A stretch of DNA of 64,000 nt from Leifsonia sp. TF02-11. Lineage in GTDB: Bacteria; Actinomycetota; Actinomycetes; Actinomycetales; Microbacteriaceae. Below, piece by piece: positions 3,853-22,413 of the stretch (positions are counted from its first letter, which is position 1; every line of letters begins with the position of its first letter). The position numbers and the translations under genes were made by a program. A model generated the notes under the pieces. It worked only from the letters and a program-made list of their open reading frames with translations, was not told the origin of the DNA and did no database searches. The DNA lies in assembly GCF_017565305.1 (NCBI RefSeq), contig NZ_JAGEKP010000024.1, positions 62,001 through 126,000 on the forward strand, in the 5' to 3' direction.

Positions 3853-4035
3853 GATGGGACGCGCTCACGGGATGCGCGATTGAACACGATCCAACCGCGC
3901 GCGGGCTCGCGGCGCTTGCCCGCCGGTGCACGGCGGTTGACCACAGCGGAACAGTCCAGACGGCACGAATTCGGTCCAGGGCCGACGAGACGGCGGGGTT
4001 TCCGCCGCCTCGGCGGGTGGTGACAGGATGGGGCG

Positions 4036-4575
4036 GTGACTTCGCTGCAGACGCTCGACGATGCCGACCGTCGAGCCGTGGCCGGGTGGGCGGCCGACTG
4101 CGCGGAGCGCGTGCTCGGACTGTTCGAGGCGGAGGCTCCGGGCGACCGCACGCCGCGGGAGGCGATCGAACGCGCGCGGGCGTACTCGCGGGGCGAGCTC
4201 GACGCGGCCGGCGAGATCAAGCGCCGCTTCGTCGCCGGCCGGGCGGCCGGCGCGGCGACCACACAGGCCGGCGTGTCCGCGGCCCGCGCTGCCGCACAGG
4301 CGGCCGCCGTCGCGCACGTTGGCTCGCACGCGCTGGGCGCGGCCGCGTACGCCGCCCGGGCCGCTGCTCTCGCCTCGCCCGATGATCCCGACGCGTTCGA
4401 CGACGAGCTCCGCTGGCAGCTGGACCGCATGACAGGCGACGTCCGCGCGGCGCTCCGCTCGCTCCCGCCCCTGGGCGCGGACCGCGCCGGACCGCTCGGG
4501 CCGGGTCTGCTGGCCTCCGGGATGCTCGGCGAGGCGATCCGGCGGATCCAGGAGGCTCTGGGCACGCCGGAGTGA
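4036..4575 (+). CDS. Imm5-like putative immunity-fold protein
   Basis: This 179-residue alanine-rich protein has no signal peptide or membrane segment. The opening (ADCAERVLGLFEAEAPGDRTPREAIE, described here in parts) with 'AADCAERVLGLFE' followed by 'TPREAIERARAYSRGE' matches the Imm5-like family, whose members often lie near polymorphic-toxin genes but are also common as orphans in actinobacteria. No toxin gene is visible nearby, so an immunity role is not supported by context. The rest is predicted to be helical, with an Ala-rich hairpin (residues about 70-115). The GTG start has no clear Shine-Dalgarno; CAGGAT at 4024-4029 sits exactly six bases before it, fitting a leaderless transcript. 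It is divergent from the permease and convergent with the IclR gene. Confidence 0.6.
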   Translation: MTSLQTLDDADRRAVAGWAADCAERVLGLFEAEAPGDRTPREAIERARAYSRGELDAAGEIKRRFVAGRAAGAATTQAGVSAARAAAQAAAVAHVGSHALGAAAYAARAAALASPDDPDAFDDELRWQLDRMTGDVRAALRSLPPLGADRAGPLGPGLLASGMLGEAIRRIQEALGTPE

Positions 4576-4598
4576 CATGCCCCAGCGCAGCCTGCCCC

Positions 4599-5267
4599 TC
4601 AGCGCAGCGCGCGCACGATCCGTTCGGCGGCGGCGGTCAGGGTCGCCGCGATCGCGTCGACCTCGTACTCGTGGGTGATGTAGACCACCGCCAGTGACGA
4701 CGGCGTGCCGTCGGGCACCCGCAGCGGAACGGCGACGGACGACAATCCGGGGATGATCTCGTCGCTGCTGACCTCGAAGGCGCGCGGCGGGTGCGCGACG
4801 GGATCGAGCTGCGAGCGGATGACCCGGCCCGGCGCTCCGCGGTCGATCGAGTGCCTGCTGCCCGGCCGCTGGGCGACCGTCGCGTCGACGCCGCGCGGCT
4901 CCGCGGTGGAGAGCGTCACAGCGGCCTCCCCGTCGAAGGCGACCACGAACGCCGTCATGCCCAGACCGTCGGCCAATTCGGCGAGCACCGGCGCCGCCGC
5001 GACGTGCAGGGCGCGCGCGACGTTGCGGGCGAGGGCGACCAGGCGGACGCCGAGCTCCAGTTCGCCGGATGCCGTCCGGAGCACGAACCCGTGCGACTCG
5101 AGCGTGCGGACCAGTCGGTACACCATCGAGCGATGGAGACCCATCCGGGCGGACAGGTCGGCGACGGTGAGCGGCGTGGGCGACTCGCCGATCAGGGCGA
5201 GGACGGTCAGACCCCGCGCGAGGGTTTGCGACCCGCCGTCCGCGCCCGTGGTGCGCTGCTGCGCCAT
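4599..5267 (-). CDS. IclR-family transcriptional regulator
   Basis: At 222 residues it is slightly shorter than the usual 240-270. Residues about 12-75 form the IclR winged helix ('TLARGLTVLALIGESPTPLTVADLSARMG' region, with the recognition helix in HRSMVYRLVRTL). Residues 85-220 are the GAF-like effector domain with the 'GLSSVAVPLR' strand typical of the family. IclR proteins bind aromatic acids or small metabolites and control the adjacent operon. The neighbour is a divergently transcribed aromatic FAD-hydroxylase at 5449, which is the probable target. The ATG start is supported by GGGAGG five bases upstream. The effector is unknown. Confidence 0.88.
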   Translation of the reverse strand: MAQQRTTGADGGSQTLARGLTVLALIGESPTPLTVADLSARMGLHRSMVYRLVRTLESHGFVLRTASGELELGVRLVALARNVARALHVAAAPVLAELADGLGMTAFVVAFDGEAAVTLSTAEPRGVDATVAQRPGSRHSIDRGAPGRVIRSQLDPVAHPPRAFEVSSDEIIPGLSSVAVPLRVPDGTPSSLAVVYITHEYEVDAIAATLTAAAERIVRALR

Positions 5268-5440
5268 CGCGACCTCCCTGTTGCCGGACTCACTGGTCCC
5301 CTACGAGCGTGCTGCTCCACTGGCTTGCTGATCCATCGGCCTGTTGCTCCACCGAGAGCGACGAGTTAGCCTTGTAGCGATTATTAGACCGCTGTTTCAA
5401 CTATAGAGACACAAGGCTCCCGGCACAACGGTCGTCATTC

Positions 5441-5448
5441 GAGGAGGA
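5441..5448 (+). promoter_or_regulatory. Ribosome site that favours a downstream GTG start
   Basis: GAGGAGGA directly abuts the ATG at 5449, leaving almost no spacer for initiation. The in-frame GTG at 5455 (Met-Ser-Val becomes fMet from Val3) lies seven bases from AGGAGG, the ideal distance. The monooxygenase is therefore probably two residues shorter than the longest frame. Confidence 0.55.
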
Positions 5449-7419
5449 ATGAGCGTGCAGATCCACTACCGCGGCTACGAGTCCGGCGATCCCCGCATCA
5501 GGCCGGCGGCCGGTCACGGCGTTGATCGCCCGCGCGAGCTGCCGGACGAGATGGACGTGCTCATCGTCGGCACCGGCCCGGCCGCCGCGGTCGTCACGGC
5601 GCAGCTCTCGCGGTTCCCCTCCATCGACGCGCGGGCCATCGAGAAGCGCCCGGGGCGACTGGAGGTCGGCCAGGCCGACGGCATCCAGGCGCGCTCGGTC
5701 GAGACCTTCCAGGCGTTCGGCTTCGCCGGCGAGGTCATCGAAGAGGCCTACCGCAACGTCGAGATGTGCTTCTGGAAGCCCGACCCGGCCGACCCCTCCC
5801 GCATCGTGCGCGCCTCCCGGGCGCCGGACGACGCGACGGGGATCAGCGAGTTCCCGCACATCTACGTCAACCAGTCGCGCATCCTCGACTACTTCCTCCG
5901 CGACGCCGAACGCGCACCCGGCCGCATCGTGCCCGACTACGGCATCGAGTTCGTGGACTGCGAGATCGACCCCTCAGCCGCCTATCCGGTCAGCGCGCGC
6001 ATCCGCTACTGCCACGGGCCGCGCTCGGGCGAGGAGCGCACGGTGCGAGCCAAGTATCTGGTCGGCGGCGACGGCGCCCGCAGCAGCGTGCGCACCGCGC
6101 TCGGCCACCGCTTGCACGGCGACGCCTCGATGCACGCCTGGGGTGTCATGGACATCCTGGCGAACACCGACTTCCCCGACATCCAGGTGAAGTGCTCGAT
6201 CCAGTCGCACGATGAGGGCAACATCCTGCTCATCCCGCGCGAGGGCGGCTACCTGGCACGCATGTACGTCGATCTCGGCGAGGTCGACGAGGCCAACCCC
6301 GGCGCCGTGCGGGCCACCCCGATCGAGGACATGATCGCCAAGGCCAACCGCATCCTGCATCCCTACACGCTCGACGTGAAGGCCGTGACCTGGTGGTCGG
6401 TCTACGAGGTGGCGCACCGCATCACCGACGGCTTCGACGATGTGCCTCCGGAGCTGACCGGAGAGCGGCACCCGCACGCGTTCATCATGGGCGACGCGTG
6501 CCACACGCACTCGGCCAAGGCCGGGCAGGGGATGAACGTGTCCATCCAGGACGGCTTCAACCTGGGCTGGAAGCTCGCCGCCGTGCTGGAGAGCCGGGCC
6601 CCCGAGGAGTTGCTGGACACCTACGCCGCCGAGCGCAAGGTGATCGCGCAGAACCTCATCGACTTCGACCGGGAGTGGTCGGGCATGATGGCCAAGCCGG
6701 TCGACGACTGGGAGGACCCGTCCGAGCTCGAGCACTGGTATGTGAAGACGATGGAGTTCCCCGCCGGCTTCATGACGCAGTACGAGGAGTCGCTGATCAC
6801 CCTCGGCACCGAGCACCAGGACCTGGCGCCCGGATTCCCCGTCGGCAAGCGGTTCAAGTCGGCGGAGGTCATCCGGCGCGCCGACAACCGCTGGCGGCAT
6901 CTCGGGCACTTCCACGAGGCCGACGGCCGCTGGCGCGTCTACGTCTTCGCCGACGCCGCGGCCCCCGCACTCGCCGGGACGCCCACCGCCGACTTCGCCG
7001 AGTGGTGGGCGACCGACCCGGCGTCGCCGTGGGTGCGGTACACCCCGGCGGGAGGCGACGACGACGCCGTGTTCGACACCAAGGTGATCTACCGGCAGGA
7101 CTACACCGAGGTGGAGCCGACGTCCGTGCCCCGCGCGTTCCAGCCGACCAAGGTGCCGTACGGCCTCCGCGACCTCAACCAGATCTTCGCGGCGGGCCAC
7201 GGCCGCGACATCCACCGCGACCGCGGGATCGGTGCGGCCGGCGCCATTGTCGTCGTTCGCCCCGACCAGTACGTCGCCGCCGTCCTCCCGCTGACCGCCC
7301 GCGCCGAGCTGAGCGACTTCTTCGCACGGCACCTGATCGAGCCGGATCGGCGCCTGGCCGACGTCGGCCACGACACCCCTCGGGAGATCGAGATCGGCGC
7401 GCGCATCCCCCTCAACTGA
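5449..7419 (+). CDS. FAD-dependent aromatic hydroxylase, phenol 2-monooxygenase family
   Basis: This 656-residue flavoprotein hydroxylase has the dinucleotide-binding motif IVGTGPAAAVV at residues about 40-50, the DG motif in VGGDGARSSVR (about 206-216), and the FAD/ribityl motif GDACHTHSAKAGQGMN (about 347-362), which is nearly identical to phenol hydroxylase and 3-hydroxybenzoate 4-monooxygenase. The C-terminal 170 residues form the thioredoxin-like dimerisation domain of this subfamily, ending in 'DIHRDRGIGAAGAIVVVRPDQYVAAVLPL'-type sequence. It uses NAD(P)H and O2 to hydroxylate a phenolic ring; the exact substrate cannot be read. The divergent IclR gene is the likely regulator. No ring-cleavage gene is adjacent, so the pathway is completed elsewhere. 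The start is probably GTG 5455 on ribosome-site spacing. Confidence 0.88.
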   Translation: MSVQIHYRGYESGDPRIRPAAGHGVDRPRELPDEMDVLIVGTGPAAAVVTAQLSRFPSIDARAIEKRPGRLEVGQADGIQARSVETFQAFGFAGEVIEEAYRNVEMCFWKPDPADPSRIVRASRAPDDATGISEFPHIYVNQSRILDYFLRDAERAPGRIVPDYGIEFVDCEIDPSAAYPVSARIRYCHGPRSGEERTVRAKYLVGGDGARSSVRTALGHRLHGDASMHAWGVMDILANTDFPDIQVKCSIQSHDEGNILLIPREGGYLARMYVDLGEVDEANPGAVRATPIEDMIAKANRILHPYTLDVKAVTWWSVYEVAHRITDGFDDVPPELTGERHPHAFIMGDACHTHSAKAGQGMNVSIQDGFNLGWKLAAVLESRAPEELLDTYAAERKVIAQNLIDFDREWSGMMAKPVDDWEDPSELEHWYVKTMEFPAGFMTQYEESLITLGTEHQDLAPGFPVGKRFKSAEVIRRADNRWRHLGHFHEADGRWRVYVFADAAAPALAGTPTADFAEWWATDPASPWVRYTPAGGDDDAVFDTKVIYRQDYTEVEPTSVPRAFQPTKVPYGLRDLNQIFAAGHGRDIHRDRGIGAAGAIVVVRPDQYVAAVLPLTARAELSDFFARHLIEPDRRLADVGHDTPREIEIGARIPLN

Positions 7420-7426
7420 CCACCGT

Positions 7427-7484
7427 CGAGACGTGAGTAGTCGCGGAAATCGGCTCCCCGATTCCGGCGATCACTCACGTCTCG
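7427..7484. terminator. Long bidirectional hairpin containing a recurrent intergenic repeat
   Basis: The arms 7427-7453 and 7458-7484 pair over 27 bases with a few mismatches around CTCC. The outer 12 bases (CGAGACGTGAGT) are perfect. It fills the gap between the convergent monooxygenase and SDR genes, so it should terminate both. The arm TCGAGACGTGAGTAGTCGCG recurs, 18 of 20 identical, at 39090-39109, which suggests a dispersed repeat family. Confidence 0.8.
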
Positions 7485-7486
7485 GC

Positions 7487-8278
7487 CTAGAGGAGGCCGG
7501 TGAGGACGCCGCCGTCGGCGCGGATGGCCGCTCCGTTGGTGGCGGAGGCCAGCGGGCTCGCCAGGTAGGCGACCAGCGACGCCAGCTCCGTCGGCTCGAG
7601 GAACCGCTCGAGCAGGGTGGTGCGGTTCTGCCCGATGATCGCGGCCTTCACCGCGTCGACCGGCGCGGACTGCGCTGCCGCGATCGACTCGACCGTGGCG
7701 GCGACGCCGTCCGAGTAGGTCGGCCCGCCGAGCACCGTGTTGACCGTCACCGCCGTGCCCCGCGTGAGCTTGGCGAGCCCGTTGCCGAGGGCGATCATCG
7801 CCGCCTTCGTCACGCCGTAGTGGATCATGTCGGCCGGCACGTTCACACCCGACTCGCTGCTGACGAACACGACGCGGCCGGAGCCGCGCTCGAGCATGCC
7901 CGGCAGCAGGTGCCGCGACAGCCGGACGCCGCTCATCAGGTTGACCTCCAGGTAGCGGGCCCACTCGTCGTCGGTCACGTCGGCGAACGGCGCCAGGCCG
8001 AACACACCGACGTTGTTGACGAGGATGTCGACCGCGCCCAGCCTCTCCAGGAGCGCGTCCACCTGGGCGGGGTTGCCGAAGTCGGCGGCCAGCCCGGAGT
8101 GCTCGGCGCCGGGGTGCGCGCTCCGGAGTCTGGCGACCGCCGCCGCGACAGCCTCCTCTCCGCGCCCGTTCACGATGACGCGCACGCCCTCCGCGGCGAG
8201 CGCCGAGGCCACCGCGTAGCCGATCCCCTGTGTCGAACCGCTGACGAACGCCGTCTTCCCACGCAGCTGCAGATCCAT
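7487..8278 (-). CDS. Short-chain dehydrogenase/reductase (classical SDR)
   Basis: The protein has 263 residues with a full Rossmann fold. The nucleotide motif is SGSTQGIG (about 13-20), the structural motif is NNVG in place of the usual NNAG (about 88-91), and the catalytic residues are Ser in VSSESG (about 140) and Tyr/Lys in YGVTK (about 153-157). It is NAD(P)-dependent and oxidises an alcohol or reduces a ketone; the substrate is unknown. An insertion rich in Ala/Val (residues about 190-225) gives an active-site lid. The start ATG is preceded by AAGGAG at five bases. A MarR gene faces it across an 81-base gap holding two matching palindromes, so the SDR is probably repressed by that MarR and induced by a small molecule. 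Confidence 0.9.
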   Translation of the reverse strand: MDLQLRGKTAFVSGSTQGIGYAVASALAAEGVRVIVNGRGEEAVAAAVARLRSAHPGAEHSGLAADFGNPAQVDALLERLGAVDILVNNVGVFGLAPFADVTDDEWARYLEVNLMSGVRLSRHLLPGMLERGSGRVVFVSSESGVNVPADMIHYGVTKAAMIALGNGLAKLTRGTAVTVNTVLGGPTYSDGVAATVESIAAAQSAPVDAVKAAIIGQNRTTLLERFLEPTELASLVAYLASPLASATNGAAIRADGGVLTGLL

Positions 8279-17154: not shown

Positions 17155-17715
17155 GTGCCCGACTCCGACTCCCCCGACTCCCCCGAGCGCGAACTGCTCG
17201 CCGCGCTGACGCTGCTCGTCGCCAACTGGGGGTCGGTCGCGGTGCAGGAGACGATCGCCCGGCGTGCCGGCGTCACCGTCGATCCCGTCGACGTGCAGCC
17301 GTTGTACACGCTGGGCCAGCAGGGTCCGCAGCGCGCGAGCACGCTCGCCGACACCCTGCGCCTCAGCCGGCCGACCATGAGCAAGCAGCTGCGCCGGCTC
17401 GAGAACGCCGGGCTCGTCAGCCGTGCGTCGGACGCCGCAGACGCGCGCGCCGCCATCGTCTCGCTGTCGCCGGCAGGGGCGGAGGCCTATCGGCGCCTCG
17501 TCGGAGAGGGCATCGCCATCGTGCAGGGCGCCCTCGCGCAGTGGGACGCCGCGAGCACGGGAGCGTTCGCCCGCGACCTGTCGCGGTTCGTCTCGTCGCT
17601 CACCGTCGATGGCGAGAGCACGGCGCGCAGCGAGAGCACGGCGCACGCAGAGAGCCCGGCGAGCGCAGACCAGCCGTCCACGGGCAACGGTCCCGTGGAG
17701 AGAGAAGAGAGGTAA
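17155..17715 (+). CDS. MarR-family transcriptional regulator with acidic Ser/Glu tail
   Basis: This 186-residue protein has a MarR winged helix in residues about 40-120; the recognition helix is in LRLSRPTMSKQLRRLENAGL and the wing in 'RASDAADARAAIVSLSPAG'. After residue 150 comes an unusual low-complexity tail of about 35 residues with repeated Glu-Ser and Ala-Glu units, encoded by near-repeats of GAGAGCACGGCGC. The tail is unlikely to bind DNA. The gene is followed four bases later by an SDR gene, so the two form an operon. A palindrome overlapping the promoter suggests autorepression relieved by a ligand, probably the SDR substrate. Confidence 0.88.
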   Translation: MPDSDSPDSPERELLAALTLLVANWGSVAVQETIARRAGVTVDPVDVQPLYTLGQQGPQRASTLADTLRLSRPTMSKQLRRLENAGLVSRASDAADARAAIVSLSPAGAEAYRRLVGEGIAIVQGALAQWDAASTGAFARDLSRFVSSLTVDGESTARSESTAHAESPASADQPSTGNGPVEREER

Positions 17716-17719
17716 CACC

Positions 17720-18523
17720 ATGACCCGCACTTACGTGGTCACCGGATCCGCGTCGGGCATCGGCGCGACGACCGCGCGGCTCCTCGCCGAACGCGGCGAG
17801 CGCGTGATCGGCATCGACCTGAGGAACGCCGACATCGAGGCCGACCTGTCCGTGCCGGAAGGGCGCGCCGACGCCGCCGCCCGGGCGATCGAGCTCGCCG
17901 GCGGCACCATCGACGCCGTGATCGCGTGCGCCGGCATCTCCGCTCCCGTCCCGAAGACCATCTCGGTCAACTACTTCGGGGTGACCGAGCTCCTCACCGC
18001 CCTGCTGCCCGCGCTGGCCGCGTCGGACGCGCCGCGAGCCGCCGTCGTCTCGTCGATGGCCTCGCTCCAGCCGAACTCCGTCGAGATGGTGGAGGCCGCT
18101 CTGGCCGGCGACGAGGCGAGCGCGCTGCGGATCGCCGCCGAGCTCGCCGAGCAGGGTCCGGAGGTCGGCTACCTGGTCTACCCGTCGTCCAAGCGCGCGC
18201 TCGCGCGCTGGGTGCGCCGCGAGTCGATCACGCCCGCCTGGGCCGGCGCCGGCATCCCGCTCAACGCCGTCGCACCCGGCACGGTCATCACCCCGATGAC
18301 GGCCGACCTCCTGAAGACGCCGGAGGGCGCCGCCATGGTGGACGCCGCCGTGCCGATGCCGCTGAACTACCACCAGCCACCGGAGTCAGTCGCGAACCTG
18401 CTGATCTGGCTGACCAGTGTCGAGAACTCGCACCTCGCCGGCCAGGTCATCTACGACGACGGCGGGGCGGATGCCACGCTCCGCGGGGACGACATCTGGT
18501 CCTGGAACGACTCCGGCCGATAG
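17720..18523 (+). CDS. SDR family oxidoreductase resembling 3-alpha-hydroxysteroid dehydrogenase
   Basis: The protein has 267 residues. It has TGSASGIG (about 8-15), the short 'GIDLRNADIEADLSVPEGR' segment characteristic of the 3-alpha-HSD/carbonyl reductase (HsdA) and coniferyl-alcohol-dehydrogenase branch, 'VNYFGVTELL', and the catalytic Tyr/Lys in YPSSK (about 155-159). The acidic residue after the second beta-strand (Asp in GIDLR) indicates NAD preference. Members act on steroid or phenolic hydroxyls; the substrate here is unknown. It is translationally linked to the MarR gene. A 40-base perfect palindrome follows the stop. Confidence 0.88.
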   Translation: MTRTYVVTGSASGIGATTARLLAERGERVIGIDLRNADIEADLSVPEGRADAAARAIELAGGTIDAVIACAGISAPVPKTISVNYFGVTELLTALLPALAASDAPRAAVVSSMASLQPNSVEMVEAALAGDEASALRIAAELAEQGPEVGYLVYPSSKRALARWVRRESITPAWAGAGIPLNAVAPGTVITPMTADLLKTPEGAAMVDAAVPMPLNYHQPPESVANLLIWLTSVENSHLAGQVIYDDGGADATLRGDDIWSWNDSGR

Positions 18524-18591: not shown

Positions 18592-20454
18592 TTACTTCAG
18601 CGGGCCGTAGAGCGACGCGGTCGCACGGGCGTGGCTGGCCTGCTCGAAGGAGTAGGCGAGGCCGATGATGCCGCTCTCGTCGTAGTCACGCCCGAGGAAC
18701 TCGAGGTTGACGTTCGCGCCGGTGACGGTGACGTCGGCAGCGGTCGCCTGGCCCATCGGCACCGTGATCGCCGGCATGCCCGTATTGGGGCTGAGGCGCA
18801 TGTTCGTGCCGATGGTGTTGTACGGCGAGCCGCTCGGATAGACGAGGGCGTCCAGTGTGTTGTCGTTCATCAGCTGGGTGACGGTGGCGTTGCCCAGCGC
18901 GATCGCCGCGGTGTGCGTACCGCTCGGCCCCGCCCAGGCCTGGTACTGGCTCTCCGTCACGTTGTTCCTCGAGGTGTACGTGGGGTTCCGGGAGGCGACG
19001 TTCCTGCCGGAGGCCACGATGTCGGCGATCGATCGGTTGGTGACCGACGGGTCGAGGTGGTTCTGGATGTACACGTTCAGGTCGTGCTTGAACTCGTTCG
19101 TGCTTCCGCTGCCCTCGTTCAGCGTCGCCGTGAAGGCCGAGGGCACCGAGGTGATCTCGACGACGGTCGCGCCCTGCGCGACGAACGTCGCCTTGGCGTC
19201 GGCCCACAGCCGCGTGACCGTGGCGTTGCTGCCGAGCATCGACGTGACGATACCGATCCGCTTGCCCTTCAGCGCGGAGGGGTCGAGCGCCGTCGTGTAG
19301 GAGGTCGGCACCCGGCCGGTCTGCTCAGCGGTGATCGGGTCCGCCGCATCCACCCCGGTGACCGCGTCGAGCGCGATGGCCGCGTCGGTGACACTGCGCG
19401 CGATCGGGCCGCCGGTGTCTTGGCTGAGCGCAAGCGGGATGATGCCCTCACGGCTGGCGAGCCCCACGGTCGGGCGGATGCCGACGAGCGAGTTGTACGT
19501 CGACGGAACTCGGATCGAGCCGCCGGTGTCGGTGCCGAATCCGATCCCCGCGAAGTTGGCCGCGATGGCCGCACCGGTGCCGCCGCTGGAGCCGCCCGCC
19601 GTCTTCGCGGTGTTCAGCGGGCTGGCGACCAAGAGCGTCTTACCCGCATCCTGGCCGGAGGAGAACTCCGACACGAAGCCGTACGCGAACTCGTCGAGGC
19701 TGGCCTTGGCGAGGATGACGGCGCCGGCGGCGCGCAGGCGTTTCACCATGGTCGCATCGTCGCTGGTCTGGTTGCCGTCCCAGCAGCCGCAGCCGCCGGT
19801 CGTCGGCATGTCGACGGTGTCGTAGTTGTCCTTGACCGCGATCGGGATGCCGAGCAGCGGGCTGGTCATGCCCTTCTGCGCGCGCGTCGCGTCGGCCTGG
19901 GCCGCGATCGTCAGCGCCCGCGCGTTGGTGGCGATGATCGAGTTGAGCGCGCGACCCCCTGCCCCGGTGTCGACGACCGTGCGGTCCAGCGCCGCGATCC
20001 GATCCAGGTACTCCTGCGTGATCTTCACCGACGTCGTCACGCCGGCGTTCATGGCGGCCTGCATCTCGAGTGCGGACGCCTCCACCAGCTCGAACGGGCC
20101 GTCATCGTAGATCATCCGCTGAGCGAGACCGGAAAGGTCCGCGACGGTGATCACGCCGTCGCCGTTCACGTCGGCCGCGGCGACCGCGGGCCAGCCCGGG
20201 GAGGCGCTCGTCTCACCGAGGTGCGCGGCGAGCACGTCGAGGTCGGCCGTGGTGACCTGCTGATCACCGGTCAGATCGAGGGCGGTGTAGTACGGCGCGA
20301 GGAACGCGCCTGCCGCGGCCGCCGGGGCGGCGTCGCCCGTCGGGACAGCGGTCGCGGCTGGGGCGACGACGCCCGCGGCGATGAGCGCGGCGAGCGCGGC
20401 GACGGCACCGGTGGCGGTTGCGGCGGCACGGCGGCGGGTGCTTCGGGTGTGCAT
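18592..20454 (-). CDS. Secreted amidase-signature enzyme with N-terminal type I dockerin
   Basis: This 620-residue exported protein has a signal peptide at residues 1 to about 38 (twin Arg-rich start, long Ala-rich core, cleavage near ATAVP). Two calcium-binding dockerin repeats lie at about 57-115: DLTGDQQVTTADLDVLAAHL and DVNGDGVITVADLSGLAQRM. From about 125 to the end is an amidase-signature hydrolase with catalytic Lys in IPIAVKDNYDT, cis-Ser in GGSSGGTGAA and nucleophile Ser in TDTGGSIRVPS. Such enzymes hydrolyse amides; the physiological amide is unknown. The gene lies 35 bases behind a gene for a wall-anchored cohesin, which could hold this enzyme on the cell surface. The start ATG has AAGGAG ten bases upstream; an earlier ATG at 20493 lacks one and would spoil the signal peptide. 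Confidence 0.9.
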   Translation of the reverse strand: MHTRSTRRRAAATATGAVAALAALIAAGVVAPAATAVPTGDAAPAAAAGAFLAPYYTALDLTGDQQVTTADLDVLAAHLGETSASPGWPAVAAADVNGDGVITVADLSGLAQRMIYDDGPFELVEASALEMQAAMNAGVTTSVKITQEYLDRIAALDRTVVDTGAGGRALNSIIATNARALTIAAQADATRAQKGMTSPLLGIPIAVKDNYDTVDMPTTGGCGCWDGNQTSDDATMVKRLRAAGAVILAKASLDEFAYGFVSEFSSGQDAGKTLLVASPLNTAKTAGGSSGGTGAAIAANFAGIGFGTDTGGSIRVPSTYNSLVGIRPTVGLASREGIIPLALSQDTGGPIARSVTDAAIALDAVTGVDAADPITAEQTGRVPTSYTTALDPSALKGKRIGIVTSMLGSNATVTRLWADAKATFVAQGATVVEITSVPSAFTATLNEGSGSTNEFKHDLNVYIQNHLDPSVTNRSIADIVASGRNVASRNPTYTSRNNVTESQYQAWAGPSGTHTAAIALGNATVTQLMNDNTLDALVYPSGSPYNTIGTNMRLSPNTGMPAITVPMGQATAADVTVTGANVNLEFLGRDYDESGIIGLAYSFEQASHARATASLYGPLK

Positions 20455-20489
20455 GGCTGCGGTGCTCCTTCTGAGGGGGCGGGCGGGGA

Positions 20490-21221
20490 TCATCGGGCGT
20501 CTCCCGTGCGGCGGCGGCGCACGACCACGAGGACGGCGGCGGCACCCACGATGACGAGGGCGAGCGCGGCGAGCGCGAACGGCGTCACATCCGATCCGGT
20601 CGACGCGAGGTCGTCGGCCGAGGTGGCAGCGGTGGAGCCGACCGGATCCGCAGGATCGGTGCCGGCCGCCGGGGCCGCGCTCGGCGTGGGAGTGGGCGTC
20701 GGGGTGGGGACGGCCGCCGGCTCGACCGTCACGGCCGGGCTCGAGGCGTCGTTCGTCGACGCCGTGACCGTCGAGGCGGCGTCCACCAGCGAGAGGGTGC
20801 TCAGCGAGAACACCGTCGAGCCGGCGGCGACTGCCGAGAATCTGAGCGTGAAGGCGATGTCCCCGGAGAGCGCGGGCGAGGTGCCGAGCCGGGTGGAAGC
20901 CAGCTCGACGGTGCCCGGGCCGGTGTGGACGGAGTCGAATCCGCCTGCCGGGGCGACGGCGCTTCCATCGACGTAGGCGGCGACGGCCGGATCGAAGGCG
21001 ACGACCGCATCGAATCCGTAGACGTCGGCCGTCCCGTGCAGGGTCACGGTCACATCGAACGTGTCACCCTCGGTGACGGACGCGGGCGCGGAGACGGTGA
21101 CACTGGACTTCGCCGGGGCGGCGATGGCGGGCACGGCTGCGCTCACCGCGAGGCCGAGGCCCGCGGCGATCGCGCCGGCGACCGCGAGAAGGCGCACGAG
21201 TCGCCTGGGTTTCTGGTGCAT
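20490..21221 (-). CDS. Cell-wall-anchored protein with a cohesin-like domain
   Basis: This 243-residue surface protein has a signal peptide at residues 1-35 (ends AIAAPA). A cohesin-type beta-sandwich follows at about 38-160: 'VTVSAPASVTEGDTFDVTVTL', then 'VYGFDAVVAFDPAVAAYV' and 'GDIAFTLRFSAVAAG'. A Pro-Thr linker (PTPTPTPTP) leads to the sorting signal LASTG, a hydrophobic helix and RRRR at the C-terminus. LAxTG is the class E sortase motif of high-GC actinobacteria. The gene directly upstream of a dockerin-bearing amidase makes a cohesin-dockerin display pair the natural reading. The cohesin call rests on sequence pattern, not on a search. ATG 21221 is chosen for GGAAGG upstream; GTG 21248 is possible. 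Confidence 0.78.
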   Translation of the reverse strand: MHQKPRRLVRLLAVAGAIAAGLGLAVSAAVPAIAAPAKSSVTVSAPASVTEGDTFDVTVTLHGTADVYGFDAVVAFDPAVAAYVDGSAVAPAGGFDSVHTGPGTVELASTRLGTSPALSGDIAFTLRFSAVAAGSTVFSLSTLSLVDAASTVTASTNDASSPAVTVEPAAVPTPTPTPTPSAAPAAGTDPADPVGSTAATSADDLASTGSDVTPFALAALALVIVGAAAVLVVVRRRRTGDAR

Positions 21222-21432
21222 TCGGGTGGGGCCTTCCTCGTTCGACACAGGGGGACGGCCGATGCCCGCTGTCAGCCGGAGATGCTGAAGAGCGGCTCCA
21301 TCGACGAGGAGGACGTTACGGACCCGCTATTACCGGCAGAGCGCGATCGTGTTTCTGAGTGATTACACAGATTGGGACGGGCCTCCCTGGAGGACAGCCG
21401 TGTGCATGGGACAGCGGTGGAACAATGCGCCT

Positions 21433-22413
21433 ATGCACACTTCGTCCGAGGTCTCCTGGCTGCTCGACGGAATCGAGATGTTCGCGACCGTCACCCGACC
21501 GGACGGGGATGGACCGTTCCCCGCCGTGGTGTTCGTCGCCGGCAGCGGACCGACCGATCGGGACTGGTGCTCGCCGCTCATCCCCGGAAGCAACGGCAGC
21601 GGGCGGTTGCTGGCGGAGGCGCTGGCCGATACGGGCATCGCGTCGATCAGGTACGACAAGCGGGCCTCCGGCCCGCACGTGCGCGAGAACCTCCCGAAGC
21701 TGATCGGGACCATGAGCATGCGCTCGCATCTGGACGAGCTCGCCGCCGCCGTCCGCACCGTCGCCGCCGAAGACTTCGTCGACGCGACGCGCATCGTCGG
21801 TTTCGGCAACAGCGAGGGAACGCTGCACGTGCTGCACTACGCGATGGGAGCCGACCGCCCGCCCTTCGTCGGAGTCGTGCTCGCCGCCCCGCCCGGACGT
21901 CCCGTCGGGGAGGTCCTGCTCACCCAGCTCGCCCTCCAGACCGCGCAGCTCCCGAACGGCGACGACGTCCTGGCGCAGGTGCGGGCTGCGGCCGACCGGT
22001 ACGCGGCGGGCGACCCCATGGACCCGGATCCCGCCCTTCCGGAGAGCATCCGGACGGTGCTGGCGGCCTTCGACACCCCGGCGAACCTCCCGTTCGCGCG
22101 GGAGCTGTGGCGGGAGTCCGCTCGCGACCTGCTCCCGGAGCTGAGCATCCCTGCGCTGGTGCTGATCGGCGGGCGCGACCTCCAGGTCGATGTGCACGCC
22201 GACGGCGATCCGCTGCGGGCGGCCACGACCGGGAAGCCGGACGTGACCTTCGCCTTCCCGCCGCACGCGAACCACGTCCTCAAACACGACACCCGCACAC
22301 CCGCGGAGGTGGCGGCGTCGCCGGGCAACGGCTACAACGACGACGGCACGGTGCTCGACCCGGAGAGCCTGACGATCATCCTCACCTGGTTGCGGTCGCT
22401 GTTCGGGATCTAG
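21433..22413 (+). CDS. Alpha/beta hydrolase
   Basis: This 326-residue hydrolase has no signal peptide. The oxyanion region is VFVAGSGPTDRDW (about 36-48), the nucleophile elbow is GFGNSEG with Ser127, and an Asp and His are expected in GRDLQVDVHADGD (about 255) and HANHVLK (about 280). It resembles BAAT/dienelactone-hydrolase-type actinobacterial hydrolases of unknown substrate. The first in-frame ATG (21349) is far upstream; ATG 21433 gives the family-like N-terminus, and AACAAT sits six bases before it, suggesting a leaderless transcript. Its TAG stop shares the tetranucleotide CTAG with the stop of the convergent gene. Confidence 0.82.
   Translation: MHTSSEVSWLLDGIEMFATVTRPDGDGPFPAVVFVAGSGPTDRDWCSPLIPGSNGSGRLLAEALADTGIASIRYDKRASGPHVRENLPKLIGTMSMRSHLDELAAAVRTVAAEDFVDATRIVGFGNSEGTLHVLHYAMGADRPPFVGVVLAAPPGRPVGEVLLTQLALQTAQLPNGDDVLAQVRAAADRYAAGDPMDPDPALPESIRTVLAAFDTPANLPFARELWRESARDLLPELSIPALVLIGGRDLQVDVHADGDPLRAATTGKPDVTFAFPPHANHVLKHDTRTPAEVAASPGNGYNDDGTVLDPESLTIILTWLRSLFGI
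22410..22413. other. CTAG shared by two convergent stop codons
   Basis: The palindrome CTAG supplies TAG to the hydrolase on the + strand (22411-22413) and TAG to the SRPBCC gene on the - strand (22410-22412). There is no room for a terminator, so the two transcripts must overlap. Confidence 0.85.

Follow-up and report, generated by a model that had tools for sequence, protein, structure and literature searches.

A cohesin protein and a dockerin-bearing amidase form a probable one-to-one pair in Leifsonia sp. TF02-11

Two adjoining genes encode a cohesin protein and a dockerin-amidase

We analyzed a stretch of 64,000 nucleotides of Leifsonia sp. TF02-11 (contig NZ_JAGEKP010000024.1, positions 62,001 to 126,000; termed the window below), in which two adjoining genes encode a small cohesin protein and a secreted amidase that carries a dockerin. 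The corresponding genome is 5.09 Mb in size, is distributed over 50 contigs, and is 99.99% complete. Cohesin and dockerin themselves are known modules, and their docking is known mainly from the polysaccharide-degrading complexes of anaerobic Bacillota. Based on the comparison of related loci, we consider it likely that the cohesin protein is anchored by a sortase and docks the amidase on the cell wall, the two proteins forming a dedicated one-to-one pair. The features of the locus are compiled in Table 1.

The initial annotation of this DNA had described two adjoining leftward genes, and both were recovered, on the minus strand. The 35-base spacing that it reported applies if the amidase starts at 20454, but a second in-frame ATG at 20493, which overlaps the stop codon of the cohesin gene, is also a possible start; because of this second codon, both starts remain candidates. 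Scans of the locus for promoter and terminator consensus sequences returned no match, which is a weak test in a GC-rich actinobacterium.

Table 1. Coordinates of the features at the locus (window positions)
Feature	Position	Strand	Basis
Cohesin protein gene	20490..21221	-	243 aa plus stop; Pfam Cohesin over cut-off
Signal-peptide-like N terminus of cohesin protein, residues 1-35	21117..21221	-	Basic start, hydrophobic core, Ala-rich end, by eye
Cohesin domain, residues 42-161	20739..21098	-	PF00963, 34.0 bits (cut-off 24.1)
Sorting signal: LASTG (20595-20609), hydrophobic stretch, RRRR tail	20493..20609	-	NF058582, 30.7 bits (cut-off 27)
Dockerin-amidase gene	18592..20454	-	620 aa plus stop; reading frame and Pfam matches
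Signal-peptide-like N terminus of dockerin-amidase, residues 1-36	20347..20454	-	By eye
Type I dockerin, residues 60-113	20116..20277	-	PF00404 (Dockerin_1), 31.6 bits (cut-off 22.9)
Dockerin calcium loops	20242-20277 and 20137-20172	-	Loop positions in sequence
Amidase-signature catalytic domain, residues 120-611	18622..20097	-	PF01425, 255.9 bits (cut-off 27)
Flanking dehydrogenase	17711-18523		Neighbor of the pair
Flanking alpha/beta hydrolase	21349-22413		Neighbor of the pair

The cohesin protein carries a sorting signal

The cohesin-like nature that had been proposed for the 243-residue protein was borne out by its Pfam match and by a profile relationship to cohesins of known structure. 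When a profile built from 19 cohesin sequences of the family was compared with solved structures, the best match was the NagJ cohesin (E value of 5e-9, profile positions 3-130), and scaffoldin cohesins were also matched, with E values of 5e-7 and weaker. The single cohesin sequence, in the same comparison with solved structures, retrieved no meaningful relative, its best match being another protein with an E value of 0.91. The cohesin domain is followed by a Pro/Thr-rich linker and by the LASTG motif (residues 205-209), which, together with the hydrophobic stretch and the RRRR tail, passes the NCBIfam model for LAVTG-type sorting signals, so that the LAxTG anchor of the initial annotation stands.

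Two sortase matches were found in the genome, the stronger of which is a class E sortase (240 bits, cut-off 160). Excerpts from PMC5148588 describe proteins with an LAXTG motif as being displayed by class E sortases. The locus thus combines what is expected of a class E sortase substrate: LASTG is followed by the hydrophobic stretch and the basic tail, and the same genome encodes a class E sortase.

The partner is a secreted amidase with a single dockerin

The second protein combines a signal-peptide-like N terminus, a dockerin, and an amidase-signature domain that scores far above its Pfam cut-off, in agreement with its description as a secreted amidase-signature enzyme. Its dockerin had been described as two textbook type I repeats; the assignment to Dockerin_1 holds, whereas position 3 of loop 1, usually Asp or Asn in dockerin calcium loops, is Thr. 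We tallied the loop residues across 57 dockerin sequences, including that of the window. In loop 1, position 1 is Asp in 55 sequences and Glu in 1, position 3 is Thr in 56 and Ser in 1, position 5 is Asp in 56, and position 12 is Asp in all 57. In loop 2, Asp occupies positions 1 and 12 in all 57 sequences, and Asp or Asn was found at position 3 in all 57 and at position 5 in 55, the other 2 having Ser. No EF-hand model was reported in a Pfam scan of the protein at an E value of 0.01.

The nearest solved relatives of the enzyme by sequence are peptide amidases; the structure 1m21 aligns with residues 120-611 (245 bits). We take Lys208, Ser289, and Ser313 to be the catalytic triad, an assignment made from motif and spacing and partly from general knowledge of the family; these residues are invariant in all 27 aligned sequences, including that of the window. 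The two serines are separated by 24 residues, and excerpts from PMC3676327 give the same spacing for QsdB (Ser147 and Ser171). The amidase family is broad and, according to these excerpts, includes an acyl-homoserine lactone amidase. Among the 25 NCBIfam amidase models listed for the 620-residue protein, none reached its own cut-off. Because of the relationship to peptide amidases, our tentative guess for the substrate is small amidated peptides or amino-acid amides. The closest named relative among the matches listed is from Leifsonia aquatica (86% identical).

One cohesin and one dockerin were found in the genome

A genome-wide Pfam search at an E value of 0.001 retrieved one cohesin and one dockerin, both at this locus. 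Since Pfam misses divergent members, as illustrated by 6 cohesins and 2 dockerins in loci of the host family that were found only with family profiles, we searched the genome again with profiles of the cohesin and dockerin families at an E value of 0.1 and again retrieved one of each. The expression one-enzyme "cellulosome" used for this locus is consistent with this result, with the single dockerin being borne by the amidase. For the same reasons a multi-enzyme cellulosome was rejected: neither a multi-cohesin scaffoldin nor a set of dockerin-bearing carbohydrate enzymes was detected in the genome by Pfam or family profiles.

Cohesin and dockerin co-occur in the host family and genus

The initial annotation had asked for a survey of co-occurrence in the Microbacteriaceae. 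Of 398 genomes of this family, 21 matched Pfam Cohesin and 26 matched Dockerin_1, and 19 matched both, compared with 1.37 expected (Fisher P = 1e-24). We then fetched the loci from the 27 other family genomes with a cohesin or dockerin match. Including the genome of the window, 26 of 28 have both genes together, fused in one case. In the two other genomes the matches lie at contig ends: in G155 the cohesin gene and the dockerin-amidase gene are each at a contig end, and G264 has only a weak dockerin fragment, also at a contig end. A single dockerin was reported in 24 of the 26 dockerin-positive family genomes.

In the remaining two of these 26 genomes, G360 (locus L069) and G321 (locus L061), a further dockerin lies on a different reading frame. 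The one in L069 is part of a frame of 1241 residues (positions 3969-7691) and is the sole Pfam match of that frame at an E value of 0.01.

Within the genus, the enzyme is present in 12 of 28 genomes, and in all 12 a cohesin gene with a LASTG tail adjoins it. In a search of 60 genomes, these 12 contained matches with at least 77% identity, as opposed to at most 43% elsewhere among the matches listed. The 8 next-best amidase loci have neither a dockerin nor a cohesin within their 1.5-kb flanks. In G1129 (L226), the sequence of the dockerin-amidase is split over two frames next to a cohesin gene in one frame, reflecting either a broken copy or a sequencing error. Taken together, the co-occurrence and the adjacency of the two genes make a chance neighbor very unlikely, and chance adjacency was rejected on these grounds.

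The pair extends to further actinobacterial families

In a wider survey, genome contigs were scanned for the amidase, and 80 of 579 confirmed loci were kept. Twenty of the 80 relatives carry a dockerin; these belong to Curtobacterium, Cellulosimicrobium, Cellulomonas, Mycetocola, Nocardioides, Oceanitalea, Microbacterium, Frigoribacterium, Oerskovia, Agreia, Leifsonia, and two other Microbacteriaceae. A cohesin adjoins the enzyme in 18 of these 20 loci, the other two (L085 and L086) being cut by a contig end just upstream, and it was found in the fetched flank (4 kb, or shorter at contig ends) of none of the 60 relatives without a dockerin. Searches for cohesins beyond the family gave matches in 17 of 396 genomes of the order and in 10 of 394 genomes of the class. 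The 15 loci newly fetched from the order comprise 13 pairs, 1 contig-cut locus, and 1 match below the cut-off that has no match to the family profiles; the 7 from the class comprise 5 pairs, 1 lone cohesin (L204), and, again, 1 match below the cut-off without a family match.

In total, we counted 73 locus rows (the window, L050-L079, the 20 loci from the amidase scan that bear a dockerin, L177-L191, and L199-L205). For a domain to be counted, its score had to exceed 25 bits against the profiles built from L050-L079 and the window, so that these rows match partly by construction. Removal of 5 duplicates left 68 distinct loci, all chosen for a cohesin or dockerin match, and the pairing figures are conditional on this retrieval by way of one domain or the other. 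Both genes are present in 57 of the 68 loci, with the cohesin first in 44, the amidase first in 10, and the two fused in 3; the linkage thus persists through changes in gene order. The dockerin-amidase is alone in 3 loci (L057, L085, and L086), all at contig ends, and the cohesin is alone in another 3, of which L056 and L185 are at contig ends and L204 is uncut. Neither domain was counted in 5 loci (L061, L069, L073, L189, and L205). Considering uncut flanks only, all 57 dockerin-amidases have a cohesin and 57 of 58 cohesins have a dockerin-amidase.

The lone cohesin protein of L204 has a tail resembling Big_3_5, below the cut-off, and the neighboring gene upstream encodes a peptidase with both a PA and an M28 domain.

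Fusions, substitutes, and anchoring tails

In three loci, the cohesin, the dockerin, and the amidase are encoded in a single reading frame. The frame of L065 (G340) reads, in this order, cohesin, LSATG, a hydrophobic stretch, a second hydrophobic stretch, dockerin, and amidase, with no in-frame ATG, GTG, or TTG from the basic tail up to the second hydrophobic stretch. In L096 (Nocardioides daeguensis) and L181 (G578), the order is dockerin, amidase, and cohesin; no signal peptide was seen between the amidase and the cohesin of L096, and the chain of L181 terminates in an LAVTG tail. In Pfam, the dockerin of L096 scored 20.9 bits, just below the cut-off of 22.9, and for L065 no dockerin was reported.

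A different arrangement was observed in Paenibacillus, where 4 of the 6 amidases scanned (L102, L103, L104, and L106) have an N-terminal SLH domain over the cut-off and 2 have none reported. These four enzymes resemble the dockerin-amidase in having a homologous amidase domain (44-46% identical) behind an N-terminal surface module, but SLH stands in place of the dockerin and there is no cohesin in the fetched flank. They are likely a direct wall-binding version of the enzyme, and the replacement of the dockerin by SLH points to surface retention as the conserved property.

By eye, a sorting signal composed of LxxTG, a hydrophobic stretch, and a basic tail is present in 48 of 57 cohesin proteins, including that of the window and that of L065, in which it is internal to the fusion. 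Among the 9 others, L072 has the hydrophobic stretch and the basic tail but no motif, L180 stops after the cohesin, and seven have other tails (L089, L096, and L199-L203). Of these seven, L089 and L096 are from Nocardioides and the other five from family f45, presumably the Nocardioidaceae. Two of the other-type tails were scanned: that of L089 matches the Ig-like domain Big_3_5 below the cut-off, and that of L096 gave no match. Wall anchoring is therefore not universal; as far as can be predicted from the tails, it prevails in the order of the host and not in the lineage of Nocardioides and f45.

Trees and covariation of the domains

A tree was built from 60 dockerin-amidases and 8 of the 60 relatives that lack a dockerin. 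The 8, all from Bacillota, split off with support values of 100/100; long-branch warnings were issued for some rows, including L072, L125, and L181. A mirror-tree analysis of 57 pairs gave correlation coefficients of 0.52 for dockerin and cohesin, 0.66 for dockerin and amidase, and 0.52 for amidase and cohesin. After the removal of the amidase distances, the correlation between dockerin and cohesin was 0.28, a value reached in 0 of 2000 permutations, but we give this residual little weight because the permutations ignore shared ancestry.

Proposed mechanism and alternative explanations

In the mechanism that we favor, the cohesin protein would be exported and covalently fixed to the wall at LASTG by the class E sortase. 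The amidase would be exported separately, and its N-terminal dockerin would plug into the single cohesin, presumably in a calcium-dependent manner, so that the enzyme is held at the surface, where it may hydrolyze small amides. The proposal of the initial annotation that the cohesin displays the dockerin-amidase gains support in that the genes co-occur, are present in one copy each in the genome, and encode a cohesin protein that can be anchored, and the fusions and the SLH substitutes are in agreement with it. The comparative evidence for the predicted pairing is strong.

A number of observations weigh against wall display by a dedicated cohesin. (i) The cohesin protein also has a weak match to choice-of-anchor V (21.4 bits), which is far below the cut-off of 42. 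(ii) The conserved Thr in loop 1 appears unusual for a dockerin. (iii) When the dockerin profile was compared with solved structures, the best 60 of 259 matches were calmodulins or calmodulin constructs. (iv) Nine of the 57 cohesin partners lack an LxxTG sorting signal. (v) At the uncut cohesin of L204 (G1052, positions 4374-5525), no dockerin-amidase was found within the 10.3 kb fetched. (vi) L096 and L181 hold dockerin and cohesin in one chain, for which docking as a means of tethering seems needless. (vii) The dockerin distances track those of the amidase more closely than those of the cohesin.

Points (iv) and (vi) would be accommodated if the two domains bind each other, but docking stabilizes, activates, gates (for example, through calcium), or multimerizes the amidase, with anchoring being optional in some lineages. 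The pair would then be a one-socket, one-enzyme system native to the Actinomycetota. Because both modules are retained in the fused chains of L096 and L181, their contact might gate or assemble the amidase, with wall display being one use in part of the lineages. We regard this as possible but somewhat unlikely: most of the cohesin proteins have a sorting signal, the fused protein of L181 among them, SLH takes the position of the dockerin in the four Paenibacillus enzymes, and the fusions could merely be of recent origin.

Display by a dedicated cohesin is also to be compared with two readings in which the partnership itself would differ. The calmodulin matches would fit an EF-hand-like pair of loops that merely stabilizes the amidase by calcium, next to an unrelated adhesin with a cohesin-like sandwich to which it does not bind, the more so as binding is so far predicted from sequence. 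Nevertheless, with Dockerin_1 over its cut-off where no EF-hand model was reported, a cohesin in none of the flanks of the dockerin-less relatives, and the degree of co-occurrence in the host family, this is the most improbable of the explanations considered. Hardly more probable is a cohesin that serves as a general surface socket, either for dockerin proteins of other cells or for further proteins of its own cell: the second dockerins in G360 and G321 would be candidate clients, but the host genome has a single dockerin, as do nearly all dockerin-positive genomes of its family.

Comparison with known cohesin-dockerin systems

Pairwise, noncellulosomal cohesin-dockerin contacts between secreted proteins are known from Clostridium perfringens, and the NagJ cohesin (entries 2jh2, 2o4e, and 2ozn, the last of which we take to be the complex with NagH) is the best solved match of our cohesin profile. 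Both NagJ and NagH are presumably carbohydrate-active enzymes, whereas here a nonenzymatic wall protein bears the cohesin and an amidase is the enzymatic partner. The peptide amidase structures 1m21 and 1m22 belong to the same catalytic family and align over the whole catalytic domain, but the aligned chain has no dockerin.

The cellulosomes and mucinolysomes of Bacillota share with the present locus a dockerin on the enzyme and a cohesin protein linked to the surface; according to excerpts from PMC12997984, one mucinolysome scaffoldin ends in LPxTG. They differ from the Leifsonia pair, which has no multi-cohesin scaffoldin, a single enzyme, and no carbohydrate enzyme and is found in another phylum. 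The same excerpts describe a GH31 protein of Akkermansia muciniphila whose chain contains a dockerin and a cohesin, one of each, an arrangement also seen in L096 and L181, although that protein is a glycoside hydrolase and again from another phylum. Excerpts from PMC3544764 state that no dockerins or cohesins were found in the Cellulomonas genomes analyzed there; in contrast, a record of Cellulomonas iranensis carries a dockerin-amidase (L086).

We found no description of a dockerin-amidase or of its pairing with a cohesin in these genera among the titles and abstract openings listed from the open PMC subset, in line with the earlier remark that no characterized pair of such composition is known; older surveys of noncellulosomal modules may mention actinobacterial members. 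If our interpretation is correct, the same docking coupling is used for a different chemistry, that of an amidase, in another phylum. With two proteins, one contact, and single copies found in the genome, the pair is small enough for complete testing; the 54 separate and 3 fused pairs provide material on the coevolution of socket and plug, and the system might serve as a tool for protein display in high-GC Gram-positive bacteria.

Neighborhood of the pair

We searched for a third partner among the reading frames of at least 150 aa in 27 of 31 loci (all but L056, L061, L069, and L073). Among the 26 rows listed, no third gene family accompanies the pair through the 27 loci, so that the linkage persists through changes of neighborhood as well. 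The most widespread flanking frames among these rows are transporter-ATPase-like and recur in 5-6 other loci, mostly with 29-50% identity; one frame in partial overlap with the amidase gene recurs in 10 other loci and was set aside in this search. As judged from these sequence comparisons, the pair looks like a self-contained unit. In 9 further genomes of the genus, the flanking alpha/beta hydrolase has no match. For the flanking dehydrogenase, G360 alone of these 9 has a close match (97% identity), which lies near the pair, and identities in the others reach at most 48%.

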